The notes under the pieces are model-generated. The model saw nothing but the letters and a program-made list of their open reading frames with translations, was not told the DNA's origin and did not search any database. Positions 1 to 4,081 of a stretch of DNA of 25,112 nt are shown one piece after another. Made by a program: the position numbers and the translations under genes. Every line of letters starts with the position of its first letter. Position 1 is the stretch's first letter. Location of the stretch: positions 1 to 25,112 of IMG/VR virus record IMGVR_UViG_3300008120_007066; one strand, written 5' to 3'. The DNA comes from a virus.

Positions 1-1782
1 TAACTTTAAATTTTTAAATCCATTATATTCATCTTGAATATAGATGTCAGTTCTAGTGGATTTTAAAGTTTGCATTGGTGCAATACCACCTGGTAAAGCT
101 GAATAGCGAAGTTGAAAACGTGCAGGTGCAAAAGTTGAAGGAGCTCCATTAGCAGCTAATGATTGATTAGCAGCAGTATAGAAGTCATTCAAACTATTAA
201 AAATATAAACACCATTAGATGCTGGGAAGAACAAGTTGTTTGATTGGTATTGTTGGAAATTAATACCATGTACTATTGTATGCTTACCAGCATATTTTGT
301 AATGTTATTAGTTACATTAAATGTCCAATAATTCAACTTATTATCAGGAGTAAATGGATCAAAACCTACAGAAGTGTAGGTAGCAGAACCTTCACGAATG
401 TCAATTGTAGGGAACATATTACTCAAATAAGCTCTATCTTCAATTTGCTTATCATAAGAAACGATTAAGCTATTGTGTAAAGTGTTAGAGATTTTAGAGT
501 TTAATTCCAATACAGCTGAACGAGTGTTATCCTGGATGATGTAACCACTATTTTTAAACGACATAGCGTTAAATTGAGTGGTACGATTACCAGCACCTGC
601 TGATTGAGAGTTAGAAATGTTTATCTCAGCTGATGAGTTATGGTGAACATAACGAGCAGTAAGTTTGTTCTTAGCATCGATGTTCCAATCAGCACGAATG
701 AGAAATTTATTAGATGAATTTACATTTGAGTACCCCTCCCATGGACCAGTTGTGTAGTTAAATTTAGACTGCATGAATTTAGAAAGTGAATCCATAGCAG
801 AATATCTAACACGAGATACTTGACTACCAGCTAAAGGTGAACCAGCTGAAATCCAAGTGGTACCAGGTTCTGTTCTTTCAATTTGCTCATAGTTACCAAA
901 AATAAATAATTTGTTCTTGATAATTGGAGCACCTAAACGGAAACCTTGTACTTTTTCATCAAATTTAGCTGCTGTAACTGTAGTACCACGAGCGTTATTA
1001 CCTACATAACGTGAAGAGTTATCACGTTGTGTTTGGTAAACACTACCTTCAATGTCATTAGTACCAGAGCGTGTTACAGCATTAATACCAGCACCTGTAA
1101 ATCCAGATTGACGAATGTCAAATGGAGCTACGTTAACTTGTAATTGATCAATAGCGTCAAGTGAGATTGCTGAAGCACCTGTACGGCCACCAGCTTGTGC
1201 TGAAGATCCTAATCCAAAGTTGTTGTTAAACTGAGAACCGTCAATAGTGAAGTTGTTCATACGGCTGTCTTGAGCGCCGAATGAGTTACCATTACCAAAT
1301 GGATTGTACTTGGTAATACCATCAATTGTTCTAGCTCCTGTAATAGGAATTGAAGTTAATTCTCTACGAGTAAATTGTTGAGCGGCACCAGTTCTTTCTT
1401 TAGAGAAGATACTGTTACGACCACCAGTTACAACTACCTCTTTAAGAGCTTTCACTTCATCAATCAAAACGAAGTCAACGTTAGATGTTAAACCTAACTG
1501 TGTGTTAACTTCTGTAATTTCGCCCATTTTGTATCCTACAAAAGAGGCATGAATTGTGTAAGGTCCACCTACACGAACTGCAGGTAAAACATACACACCA
1601 GATTTGTTTGCAGTAGCAGTGTACTGCGTTCCTGTTGGAAGGTGAGTTGCATGGATTGATGCACCTACCAACACTTCTTTCTTCTCGTTAGTTACGATAC
1701 CTGAAATTGCGGAAGTGGTAATTTGGCCAAATCCAACAAAGGCAAGCATCATGAACAACAAGGATAAGACTGTTTTTTTCAT
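1..1782 (-). CDS. TonB-dependent receptor, Oar-like (C-terminus off the window)
   Basis: This is an outer-membrane beta-barrel receptor that would import a substrate using TonB energy. The frame is open for 594 codons from the ATG at 1782 and runs off the left edge, so the rest of the barrel is missing. Residues 1-20 form a signal peptide (MKKTVLSLLFMMLAFVGFGQ). Residues about 25-105 are a carboxypeptidase-regulatory-like beta-sandwich (SGIVTNEKKEVLVGASI, with a SFVGY segment). A TonB-box-like LKEVVVTGG follows, then a plug domain with VNVAPFDIRQSGFTGAGINAVTRSG, which is typical of the Oar subgroup of Bacteroidota. Codon use (AAC and TTC frequent) and visibly higher GC differ from the AT-rich phage genes to the right. 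It is therefore either a host gene at a prophage or assembly boundary, or a gene acquired by the phage. The family call is firm; which genome owns it is unresolved. Confidence 0.9.
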   Translation of the reverse strand, partial: MKKTVLSLLFMMLAFVGFGQITTSAISGIVTNEKKEVLVGASIHATHLPTGTQYTATANKSGVYVLPAVRVGGPYTIHASFVGYKMGEITEVNTQLGLTSNVDFVLIDEVKALKEVVVTGGRNSIFSKERTGAAQQFTRRELTSIPITGARTIDGITKYNPFGNGNSFGAQDSRMNNFTIDGSQFNNNFGLGSSAQAGGRTGASAISLDAIDQLQVNVAPFDIRQSGFTGAGINAVTRSGTNDIEGSVYQTQRDNSSRYVGNNARGTTVTAAKFDEKVQGFRLGAPIIKNKLFIFGNYEQIERTEPGTTWISAGSPLAGSQVSRVRYSAMDSLSKFMQSKFNYTTGPWEGYSNVNSSNKFLIRADWNIDAKNKLTARYVHHNSSAEINISNSQSAGAGNRTTQFNAMSFKNSGYIIQDNTRSAVLELNSKISNTLHNSLIVSYDKQIEDRAYLSNMFPTIDIREGSATYTSVGFDPFTPDNKLNYWTFNVTNNITKYAGKHTIVHGINFQQYQSNNLFFPASNGVYIFNSLNDFYTAANQSLAANGAPSTFAPARFQLRYSALPGGIAPMQTLKSTRTDIYIQDEYNGFKNLKL

Positions 1783-1796
1783 GTGGTTTGTTTTAG

Positions 1797-1830
1797 TTAA
1801 AAATAAAAAGCGGATGCACAGGCATCCGCT
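1797..1830 (-). terminator. Intrinsic terminator ending the phage minus-strand cluster
   Basis: Read on the minus strand there is a perfect 9-bp stem (AGCGGATGC / GCATCCGCT, 1809-1817 with 1822-1830) with a 4-nt loop, followed by a T-rich tract (TTTTTATTTTT). It lies about 80 bp after the stop of the PD-(D/E)XK nuclease gene and ends only about 15-25 bp before the receptor ATG at 1782. It could terminate the phage operon, act as an attenuator in the receptor leader, or do both. Confidence 0.85.
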
Positions 1831-1907
1831 AAGAGTTTATATACTTAGATACGTTTCGTTATAATAATTCATTACTTCCGAATTTTCAGCTATAAATATA
1901 GTATATA
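1831..1907 (-). promoter_or_regulatory. Putative promoter/leader region upstream of the receptor gene
   Basis: This AT-rich spacer contains, on the minus strand, TATATTTATAG (near 1890-1900). The same core recurs before several phage genes (for example 7760-7767 and 22018-22025) and loosely fits the Bacteroidota -7 element TAnnTTTG. No other promoter fits between here and the receptor ATG, because the remaining 26 bp are occupied by a hairpin and its T-tract. The assignment is by pattern only. Confidence 0.35.
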
Positions 1908-2693
1908 TTACTGAGAAATTTTGACAGAAATAGGTAATAATTCCGTCATAGGCTTAAAGTCAGGATTTTCTAGTTTGTAAATTTCCTGAATATTTTGGAA
2001 CATTTTAAAGTTCTTTTCAATATCATCTACAACTTTTAATTGCCATCCTTTTCCTTGAACATTATCTCCTTTTCCCTCTCCACGAGTAGATGCTTTTAAC
2101 CATAATATACCTGTTTTTTCAATTGTTTCATTGTGTGTTTCACTCCATGCTGTAGCATAAGCAGCTAACTGCAAATCATAAGCAGTGTGAAGTGAATTAG
2201 ATGTTTTAATATCTAATAACCATAATTTATCTTGAAAACGAACAATTAAGTCAGCTGTACCAGCAAACTCATATTTGTCTGAGAATAAATGATATTCAGT
2301 TGCTACTAATTCTGGTTTATGTGTATTCCAAAATTCAGCAAATTTAAGAATCATCTTCCAAACTTCAAGTGAATACTTAGCATTTCCGAATTCGTCAATC
2401 CAAGTAATTTCATTTCCGTTTAGGAAAGAATCAATTGCAGTGTGTACTTGAGTACCCTCACCTGCTGCTTTAGCAGCAATAATATCTGAATTATGTCCTA
2501 CATCTTTCAACCATGAATGGAAGAAATGATTTTTAGGAAAATAATTTAGAATTGAGGTTACTGAAGGATAATACTTGCCATTTCTCCTATAAAACCTACT
2601 GTCTAGTACATTGATTTGTTTGTTGTCTTCTGTGTACTCAACAATACGTTTAATTTTAGGGTCTTTAATGACATTTACATTTTTGTCAATCAT
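1908..2693 (-). CDS. PD-(D/E)XK nuclease, RecB/Cas4-like exonuclease family
   Basis: This 261-aa protein is predicted to be a Mg2+-dependent DNA exonuclease. The motifs appear in the family order: H84 in GTQVHTAID, E133 in ATEYH, D148 in EFAGTADLI, the core D161-x-K163 in LLDIKTS, and the QLAAY signature at 175-179. The fold therefore matches the RecB C-terminal nuclease and the Cas4-like nucleases common in phages. There are no clustered cysteines, so an iron-sulfur cluster of the Cas4/AddB kind is unlikely. Its ATG overlaps the stop of the primase gene by 4 bp (ATGA), implying translational coupling and a shared role in DNA replication, recombination or host DNA degradation. It is the last gene before the terminator at 1797-1830. 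Confidence 0.85.
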   Translation of the reverse strand: MIDKNVNVIKDPKIKRIVEYTEDNKQINVLDSRFYRRNGKYYPSVTSILNYFPKNHFFHSWLKDVGHNSDIIAAKAAGEGTQVHTAIDSFLNGNEITWIDEFGNAKYSLEVWKMILKFAEFWNTHKPELVATEYHLFSDKYEFAGTADLIVRFQDKLWLLDIKTSNSLHTAYDLQLAAYATAWSETHNETIEKTGILWLKASTRGEGKGDNVQGKGWQLKVVDDIEKNFKMFQNIQEIYKLENPDFKPMTELLPISVKISQ

Positions 2694-3628
2694 AAGTGTT
2701 GTAGTTTTTTAGCTAATAGGGATTGGAAATCAAGAGGTTGCGATTGTTCAATCGTGTTTAAAAACCTCTCAAACCCTATTTCATTAGCATCTTTACCATC
2801 TAATTCTACCAAATATACTTCTTTACCATATGACATTAGCATTTCAGCATGTTTAAAAGCATTTTTAATAGCATCAGGATCTAGTGCAATGTAAATCCTA
2901 TTAACTGATGAGCGTACTAATTTTTTCATTAGTTTCTCGTGAATAATTTTCCCAAACAAGGGAATTACGTTTCGTTTGATTGTTAAAGCATCAAATACTC
3001 CTTCTACAAGAATAATTGGTGCGTTCCAATTTATATATAACTCCCAACCAATAGCTGATTTAGCATCAGTAGGAGGATTTTTATATTTTTGTATTCCATC
3101 TTTATATGCTCTAGCTATAAAGTAATTTAATGATGAATTTTCATCATATGAAGGAACAATAACTCTATCTTTATATGGTCCATCAAGACAAAACCCAATA
3201 TTATATTTAATGATATCTTCTTGTGTTATACCACGTTTCTTTAAAAACTTTAAAGCATGTTTTGCCTCAATTTGAGCAATTTTATCTTCAATCTGAGTAT
3301 ATAATGGGGTAAATTCTTTAGGTAATTCAATAGTGCCAATTTCTTGTTTAACACGTTTTTCCCCAGGAACAATGATTAGGTTTAGTTCCGCTACTTTATT
3401 AGCGGGTACTTTAATGCTTTTAAATAAAGATCTAATGGTTTTTCCTTTTGCCTCACATACCCAACAATGCCAAGGATTTTGTTTTTTTTCGTCCGTTACG
3501 CAATTGATTTCGAGTTTATTTTTATGGTGTTTGCAAAACGGACATTTAAAAGCATGGTTGCCACGACTAGTCTTGTTGCTAGCACCTAGTACGGATTCCA
3601 ATAAAACTAGTAAAGCGGCATTTTCCAT
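2690..3628 (-). CDS. DNA primase with CHC2-type zinc finger and TOPRIM domain
   Basis: This 312-aa protein would synthesise RNA primers for lagging-strand replication. An N-terminal zinc-binding region holds four cysteines (C29, C32 in CPFC; C55, C58 in CWVC). A TOPRIM domain follows: E209-G210 in ILVEGVFDA, then D250 and D252 in IALDPDA, and D280 in DGKDANE. Between them, residues about 125-195 resemble the DnaG RNA-polymerase core (FLKKRGITQEDIIKYNIGF, then RVIVPSYDE). At 312 aa it is much shorter than bacterial DnaG and has no helicase-binding C-terminal domain, as in T4 gp61-type phage primases. It overlaps the downstream nuclease gene by 4 bp. The upstream GIY-YIG gene ends 27 bp earlier. 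Confidence 0.88.
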   Translation of the reverse strand: MENAALLVLLESVLGASNKTSRGNHAFKCPFCKHHKNKLEINCVTDEKKQNPWHCWVCEAKGKTIRSLFKSIKVPANKVAELNLIIVPGEKRVKQEIGTIELPKEFTPLYTQIEDKIAQIEAKHALKFLKKRGITQEDIIKYNIGFCLDGPYKDRVIVPSYDENSSLNYFIARAYKDGIQKYKNPPTDAKSAIGWELYINWNAPIILVEGVFDALTIKRNVIPLFGKIIHEKLMKKLVRSSVNRIYIALDPDAIKNAFKHAEMLMSYGKEVYLVELDGKDANEIGFERFLNTIEQSQPLDFQSLLAKKLQHL

Positions 3629-3655: not shown

Positions 3656-4081
3656 CTACAACAAGTCTTTAGAGAAGAACTTCCCTAATATGTTGTCGTT
3701 ATAACTTAATGAAGGAGAAACTAAACATTCAAACTTGCATTGGTAGTGCATTTCGTAATAAGTAAGTTGTTTTTTTGTTTTACAAACTTGTAATATCAAA
3801 CATTCAAAATGATCCTCGCCTAATGTTTTAACATCAGCAAGAAGTTGTTTGTTTGAGCCCCAATATGTTTTCCAATCGCTTTCAGAGCGAATAGTTTCAT
3901 GAGTTGGTTTGCGGCCTGGTCCTGTTTGCTCGGCTAATTGTTTTTTGGTTAATTTGTGTTTTTTATTATTCCAAAACACCTTTTTACCAATATAAAATTT
4001 ACCGTTAGTTAAGTTTGTAATTTTATAAACAAAACCAAAATTATCTTCGGAATTTATTATATCCCAATATTTCCATTTCAT
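3656..4081 (-). CDS. Free-standing GIY-YIG endonuclease
   Basis: This 141-aa protein has the GIY-YIG fold near its N-terminus: FVYKIT at 17-22 replaces the GIY strand and KFYIGKK at 28-34 carries the YIG element. The segment SDWKTYWGSN (68-77) and the likely metal-binding E110 in YYEMHYQ follow, as in the short GIY-YIG proteins of T4-like phages. It would make a site-specific DNA break, either as a selfish homing nuclease or in intergenome competition. It lies between virion genes and the primase gene. The leader is AT-rich, with no Shine-Dalgarno sequence. There is no sign of an intron in the adjacent genes, so it appears free-standing. The family call is good; activity and target are unknown. 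Confidence 0.85.
   Translation of the reverse strand: MKWKYWDIINSEDNFGFVYKITNLTNGKFYIGKKVFWNNKKHKLTKKQLAEQTGPGRKPTHETIRSESDWKTYWGSNKQLLADVKTLGEDHFECLILQVCKTKKQLTYYEMHYQCKFECLVSPSLSYNDNILGKFFSKDLL

Follow-up and report, generated by a model that had tools for sequence, protein, structure and literature searches.

That cyanophages carry phosphate genes is well established. The available part of one account (PMC10976474) describes a lower output of cyanophages at low phosphate and a later lysis in phages without pstS, with DNA replication itself unimpaired, and it warns that Pho boxes predicted in phages are unreliable absent binding tests. Another kind of uptake gene is illustrated by the marine megaphage Mar_Mega_1, whose SusC-like TonB-dependent receptor is interpreted, in the portion of the source available, as serving carbohydrate uptake and is said to be present in one other megaphage (PMC9723777). 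In the bacterium Flavobacterium johnsoniae, the accessible text of a third study reports that low phosphate induces Fjoh_3841 (FC 7.69), an orphan TonB-dependent transporter (TBDT) with PF13620 as its sole Pfam label, as well as the TBDT Fjoh_0545, the lipoprotein Fjoh_0546 and PlcP (PF12850) (PMC8115612). Single phage TonB receptors and cyanophage phosphate genes are therefore already known, while no account of a phage slot for outer-membrane PHO-type genes was found in a literature search that was thin in its coverage of subscription journals and bioRxiv.

The DNA analyzed here, termed the window, is an entire linear IMG/VR record of 25,112 bases (IMGVR_UViG_3300008120_007066), the left end of which holds the 5′ part of an Oar-like TonB-dependent transporter gene (594 codons, positions 1 to 1782, minus strand) that is truncated by the end of the record. 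It is separated by an intergenic leader of 125 bp (1783 to 1907) from a phage PD-(D/E)XK exonuclease gene (1908 to 2693), directly behind which lies what is termed here the accessory slot. Together with a conserved block that includes a SegE-type GIY-YIG endonuclease gene (3656 to 4081) and a DNA primase gene (2690 to 3628), this gives the order endonuclease, primase, exonuclease, receptor, all on the minus strand. We consider it fairly probable that the receptor gene is an auxiliary gene of a freshwater T4-like phage infecting Bacteroidota, and that its product would be an outer-membrane transporter, of the kind that Flavobacterium uses in phosphate starvation, for phosphorus acquisition in the course of infection. 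A broader proposal, to which we give slightly less than an even chance, is that such phages possess behind the exonuclease gene an exchangeable site for outer-membrane phosphorus cassettes, where non-homologous PHO-type parts (an Oar-like transporter, a TonB receptor with a lipoprotein, a phosphate-selective porin, or a glycosyltransferase with a PlcP-like phosphoesterase) stand in for one another or occur together. These would be under two modes of control, with the TonB receptor and lipoprotein pair (c110 and c111) outside the slot often responding to host PhoB, and the Oar-like gene uncoupled from it and equipped with a phage-specific hairpin leader.

The initial annotation of the window had recognized an Oar-like receptor with 594 open codons located 125 bp after a phage gene in the same orientation, and this is confirmed by the open reading frames and by Pfam. 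The window protein matches PF13620 and PF13715 (carboxypeptidase-regulatory-like) and PF25183 (outer-membrane barrel), an N-terminal domain and barrel that assign it by sequence to the Oar-like subgroup; the name Oar is that of the initial annotation, and no NCBIfam model matched. While the carboxypeptidase-regulatory-like domain of that annotation is thus seen by Pfam, the signal peptide is a judgement by eye, made without a predictor from a signal-peptide-like start, and for the plug the Plug model (PF07715) had no match in the window protein at E 1e-3 or, even at 0.1, in the full-length relatives tested (three phage, one bacterial). A plug is suggested only by the predicted fold of the relative L038 (1,092 aa; AlphaFold2, mean pLDDT 80.2, pTM 0.79). 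The top matches of this model are TonB-dependent transporters, namely ferredoxin, siderophore and similar receptors, all of them plugged, with FusA as the best PDB match (E 4.5e-31), and the large beta-barrel with TBDT fold that the model predicts places the family in the TonB-dependent transporter superfamily. Relatives at full length have about 1,090 codons and a C-terminal strand with an aromatic residue (YxFG), which we take to be the ending typical of outer-membrane barrels, and inspection of the window protein by eye shows LKEVVVTG, a possible TonB box. No solved structure related by sequence to the Oar-like receptor, c110 or c111 was found at E 0.01. In BFVD the top fold match, with an identity of 10% across the aligned part, was an uncultured marine phage protein named “TonB-dependent receptor SusC”. 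Among the top 50 matches in the viral fold library one uncultured marine phage protein alone was named a TonB receptor, with a phage phosphate-selective porin also named. Only 2 of 50,697 named phage records match the window protein, one of them an unannotated faecal record of 6,129 bases (34.6% identity over 98% of the query).

The T4-like character of the phage, also part of the initial annotation, is upheld because of matches to baseplate-wedge, SegE-type, primase and exonuclease proteins, and a T4-like phage of Bacteroidota fits the baseplate-like genes and the exonuclease, whose nearest relative among named phages is in Flavobacterium phage immuto (55% identity). The late sigma factor ascribed to the phage is only weakly supported, by a possible sigma factor at 20694 to 21476 (minus strand) with a PF04542 match at E 0.004, which is under the Pfam cut-off, and no PHROG match. 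Elsewhere in the window, a protein with T5orf172/MUG113 domains is encoded at 22641 to 23138 (minus strand), and a GC-rich stretch at 23570 to 23930 (GC about 0.39 to 0.40 in the surrounding 1-kb windows) holds no convincing gene and has near position 23900 a GC-rich inverted repeat with no Rfam match.

An integration junction or a chimeric assembly had been offered in the initial annotation as alternatives to a receptor gene carried by the phage itself. The receptor does have a higher GC content than the phage genes, as was stated there (0.368, with a GC3 of 0.239, against 0.26 to 0.34 for the majority of 1-kb windows between 2001 and 22500), and it is situated at a contig end, both of which would be expected of an assembly chimera or a junction of phage and chromosome. 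We nevertheless regard this origin as extremely improbable and have rejected it, since the exonuclease-receptor junction recurs in eight further IMG/VR loci (L002, L003, L005, L006, L016, L017, L021 and L038, where the receptors of L002 and L003 are almost the same), and the receptor tree places 40 of 41 phage copies in phage-only groups. The window itself ends in the receptor, but the phage genes that the initial annotation had suggested seeking on its far side are present in five of these loci (L005, L006, L016, L017 and L038), and they belong to the same kinds as the genes found behind the exonuclease in receptor-less phages. The phage itself therefore carries the receptor gene, and nutrient uptake, one of the roles named at the outset, is in line with the explanation preferred here.

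In all, 43 IMG/VR loci encode proteins with 74 to 92% identity to that of the window. Their reconstructed proteins exceed 1,050 aa in 30 cases (including L036, which is truncated at the 5′ end as well), run off the contig end in 12 and are split between frames in one (L042). The T4 major capsid protein gp23 (PF07068), sought on the records of 39 of the 43 loci, is encoded on 14 of them, which together with their common phage synteny argues against bacterial contamination of the viral contigs. Each of the 39 records tested has a single receptor copy, that of L042 being the one split over two frames. The distribution of the receptor is patchy because 26 of 27 exonuclease-bearing records, many of them fragments but four of them of 155 to 183 kb, do not have it, and the sole positive, L045, is the same contig as L003. 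The gene is host-derived by the tree described below, patchy and single copy, as is characteristic of phage accessory (auxiliary or moron) genes.

The origin of the receptor was examined with a FastTree phylogeny, without bootstrap, of 41 phage and 78 bacterial sequences (two of 80 bacterial loci had no long ORF and were excluded), on which the phage label has to change twice. Of the phage receptors, 40 form two groups that contain no bacterial sequence (support 100 and 92), and the remaining one, that of L018 on a record of 287 kb, is placed with the orthologs from Sediminibacterium and its relatives. In the comparison with candidate host receptors that the initial annotation had advised, which covered 80 of 125 bacterial loci, the nearest orthologs (66 to 70% identity) are in MAGs labelled Sediminibacterium or Chitinophaga and in a few other Bacteroidota MAGs, and Flavobacterium-type orthologs have 54 to 62% identity. 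The tree and these Sediminibacterium-type neighbors indicate that the gene is host-derived. Given the tree grouping and a dN/dS of 0.06 to 0.15 in the 11 phage-phage pairs computed, the receptor has been long established in phages and kept intact, and it is a conserved phage gene under purifying selection in an accessory slot. That the nearest bacterial matches might be binned phage contigs was considered and rejected, as the flanking ORF layout is alike by eye among the Sediminibacterium-type contigs; in L076, the one case scanned, an FAD oxidoreductase gene (PF01266) follows the receptor. A contig with a Flavobacterium-type receptor in a MAG labelled Limnohabitans (L108) is probably a binning error.

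The slot was surveyed in 34 phage loci that are non-redundant by the last 300 nt of the exonuclease gene, the window excluded; two end at this point and 32 are readable. The Oar-like receptor occupies eight of these 32, and a second TonB-dependent receptor, c110 (Plug and PF14905), another eight, and both counts are too high, since those proteins themselves had been used to retrieve the Oar loci and seven of the eight c110 loci. A third TonB-dependent receptor, c186 (Plug and PF00593), is found in two, a glycosyltransferase (c117) with a calcineurin-like phosphoesterase (c118) in three, and a phosphate-selective porin (PF07396) in one (L059). None of these gene types is present in the remaining 10 of the 32, which counts against the phosphorus reading. 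In the L292 slot, tallied under c110, c110, its lipoprotein c111, c117 and c118 occur together. Among contigs that were found by the exonuclease alone, 10 of 24 readable ones carry such a gene, in a hand count that includes some near-identical pairs. The slot is a hotspot for accessory genes. In the phages c111 directly follows c110 in all 72 loci with readable downstream DNA, out of 80 c110 loci kept from 112, and c118 matches PF12850, the family of PlcP, and is an LpxH-like or PlcP-like phosphoesterase.

Other arrangements were seen around these genes. An exported DNA/RNA non-specific nuclease (PF01223) is encoded directly behind the receptor in L008 and L010 and nearby in L042, which would fit a scavenging of phosphorus from nucleic acids. 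GroEL-type chaperonin genes are near the receptor in L008 and L010 and directly behind it in L012 and L018 (13371 to 14987), and in L037 (13374 to 13976) this position is taken by a CpeT/CpcT-family protein (PF06206) with a signal-peptide-like start. Both an Oar-like receptor and c110 are held by the records of L009, L011 and L037, and a 221-kb record (L019, 14374 to 17822) has the Oar-like receptor and the c110-c111 pair. In L053 (10815 to 12966) c110 is in two overlapping frames, and it is intact in the near-identical L054. In two Flavobacterium genomes (L381 and L382) a c186 homolog is directly behind an ortholog of the Oar-like gene, and this ortholog is 58 to 60% identical to the phage receptor.

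The majority of the other genes in the slot have homologs with a link to the PHO regulon. In all five Flavobacterium clusters read, c110 and c111 have homologs that adjoin phoB-phoR and are near pstSCAB and phoU, and these likewise adjoin phoB-phoR in Lacibacter (phoB, phoR and the pst genes were named by eye and PhoU by PF01895). Of the 20 genomes scanned, six Flavobacterium genomes matched PhoU, and each of them has a c110 homolog within about 13 kb of it, as does a seventh genome by a weak match; PhoU had no match in the other 13. In four Sediminibacterium-type genomes the c110 and c118 homologs are 6 to 9 kb apart. Two of the five Flavobacterium genomes have, within the phoBR-pst cluster, a porin that shares 56% identity with the L059 porin over 379 aa. 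Several results count against the phosphorus reading. PF07396 porins are present in only one of 50 phage records tested and the PstS-type PF12849 in none, and in F. johnsoniae OprP (Fjoh_0542, PF07396), despite belonging to the phoBR operon, is given in the available part of the source as not induced at low phosphate (FC −1.3, not significant; PMC8115612).

Regulation by PhoB was addressed with a 22-bp Pho-box matrix trained on 18 bacterial upstream regions (of pstS, porin and c110 genes, with none from Oar-like genes) and applied at a threshold of 8 bits; the trained matrix is a TTAAC repeat at 11 bp. Bacterial orthologs of the Oar-like gene (79 of 80 upstream regions after L112 was dropped, 74 after redundancy removal) have this box in 35 of 74 cases, compared with 17 of 828 bacterial control genes, the Flavobacteriales contributing 26 of 30 and other bacteria 9 of 44. 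An exact 11-bp spacing is found in 44 of the 74, with 5 to 11 at each of nine other spacings and 32 of 828 in the controls. Bacterial homologs of c186 (three of three read) and of c118 (six of eight read, a count that leaves out 9 of 18 loci and one mis-assigned ORF, L373) also have the box, in both cases without a control set. Phage c110 genes have it in 22 of 57 upstream regions (phage controls, 10 of 458), and the 11-bp spacing (N6) is exact in 41 of 57 (controls, 21 of 458); an N3 spacing of half-sites is frequent too (24 of 57). The c110 copies located in the slot, which have almost no gap upstream, have no box. The Oar-like gene of the phages is different. A Pho box was sought in the window leader and is absent (score −6.1), and the non-redundant phage copies have it in only 3 of 25 (L004, L013 and L024; a little more often than phage controls, p 0.025), with the exact 11-bp spacing in only 2 of 25. 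The nearest bacterial relatives, the Sediminibacterium-type orthologs L072 to L082, are at 0 of 11 at 8 bits, even if several of them show, by eye, a TTAA repeat at 11 bp, and phage c186 genes are at 0 of 7. All of these count against the phosphorus reading. By this measure the Pho-box-like repeat expected of PHO regulon members appears to be a property of the bacterial orthologs that the phage copy lacks.

In place of the box, the leader of the window gene contains a terminator-like hairpin (1809 to 1830, minus strand) of nine pairs that is followed by a T-run and is about 26 nt before the receptor ATG, as found by folding (−15.4 kcal/mol, z −5.27) and a terminator scan. By a rule that was set after examples had been seen and that counts near-identical copies (the terminator-like hairpin, with its T-run, must be no more than 60 nt from the ATG), such a structure precedes 28 of 34 phage receptor copies including that of the window, compared with 5 of 79 orthologs in bacteria and 4 of 30 c110 genes in phages; it is present in 4 of 7 phage c186 copies and, by a similar rule, in 119 of 1,179 other phage ORFs. 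It is also found where the upstream gene faces the opposite way (L009, L011, L037 and L039), and therefore is not the terminator of the upstream gene in those loci. The leaders of L002 and L003 have no hairpin, and that of L003 contains an element, TACCTTTG, that we take to resemble the Bacteroidota −7 box. Directly behind the exonuclease stop codon, ATATTTAT is conserved in the window (about 1885 to 1900) and in L003, L005, L006, L016, L017, L021 and L038, and its other strand, in our view, resembles a T4 late promoter. Control of the window gene would hence differ from that of its bacterial orthologs, with a predicted hairpin leader instead of the box.

What the receptor does for the phage can be read in other ways. 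TonB-dependent receptors are frequent phage receptors, and the Lc porin of phage PA-2 is a phage-encoded porin that replaces the host receptor, so the window protein might replace, dilute or mask a host transporter to bring about superinfection exclusion or to prevent re-adsorption to debris, and the glycosyltransferase and LpxH-like or PlcP-like phosphoesterase of other slots could likewise alter the envelope. We judge such remodelling of the surface unlikely, however, as the unrelated genes of the slot have phosphate-starvation homologs in common rather than one surface target, the constant pairing of c110 with a lipoprotein is like that of an uptake pair, and the phage copies remain near their bacterial orthologs (up to 70% identity) with purifying selection over the whole gene. 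The favoring of phosphorus acquisition over receptor replacement or superinfection control is thus based on the direction in which most of the other slot genes point. Less likely still is that the receptor serves nutrition in general, by uptake of carbon, iron or peptides. TonB-dependent transporters have diverse substrates, the top fold matches are receptors for ferredoxin, siderophores and the like, and carbohydrate uptake is the interpretation given for Mar_Mega_1 in the available text (PMC9723777), but this does not account for the Pho-box-like element upstream of the bacterial orthologs or for the phosphate-linked families in the same slot.

If phosphorus acquisition is the function, the phage would express the transporter from a leader of its own at a time when host genes are no longer expressed, and the protein would be inserted into the outer membrane of the host. 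There it might take up, with TonB as the driver, a substrate that contains phosphorus and is probably an organic or complexed phosphate, and the sustained phosphorus uptake could feed phage DNA synthesis. Lake Bacteroidota phages would then act at the outer membrane, one step before the periplasmic PstS, and would do so with several interchangeable transporters. This would also provide a testable link among phosphorus limitation, phage gene content and the outer-membrane composition of the host, and a proposed function for the TonB-dependent receptors found in phage genomes.

Compared with the systems described so far, the locus shares with Flavobacterium phage vB_FspM_immuto (Immutovirus) the primase-exonuclease gene order, but in immuto the gene behind the exonuclease encodes a 302-aa hypothetical protein (gp089) with no Pfam match. 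Mar_Mega_1 is similar in that a TonB-dependent receptor is encoded by a phage, and different in its carbohydrate interpretation and in that the part of the report available describes no slot or family (PMC9723777). The likeness to Fjoh_3841 consists of one label, PF13620, as reported in the accessible text (PMC8115612), to which can be added the 11-bp tandem box upstream of the Flavobacteriales orthologs of the window gene; unlike these relatives, the window copy has a hairpin leader and no box. The cyanophage PstS and PhoA genes, which are under host PhoBR, concern other hosts and, in PstS, a periplasmic binding protein (PF12849, absent from the 50 records) rather than an outer-membrane transporter, but on the available part of that account they too are host-derived and patchy phosphate-acquisition genes (PMC10976474), and the likeness extends to the Pho-box-like element that many phage c110 genes keep.
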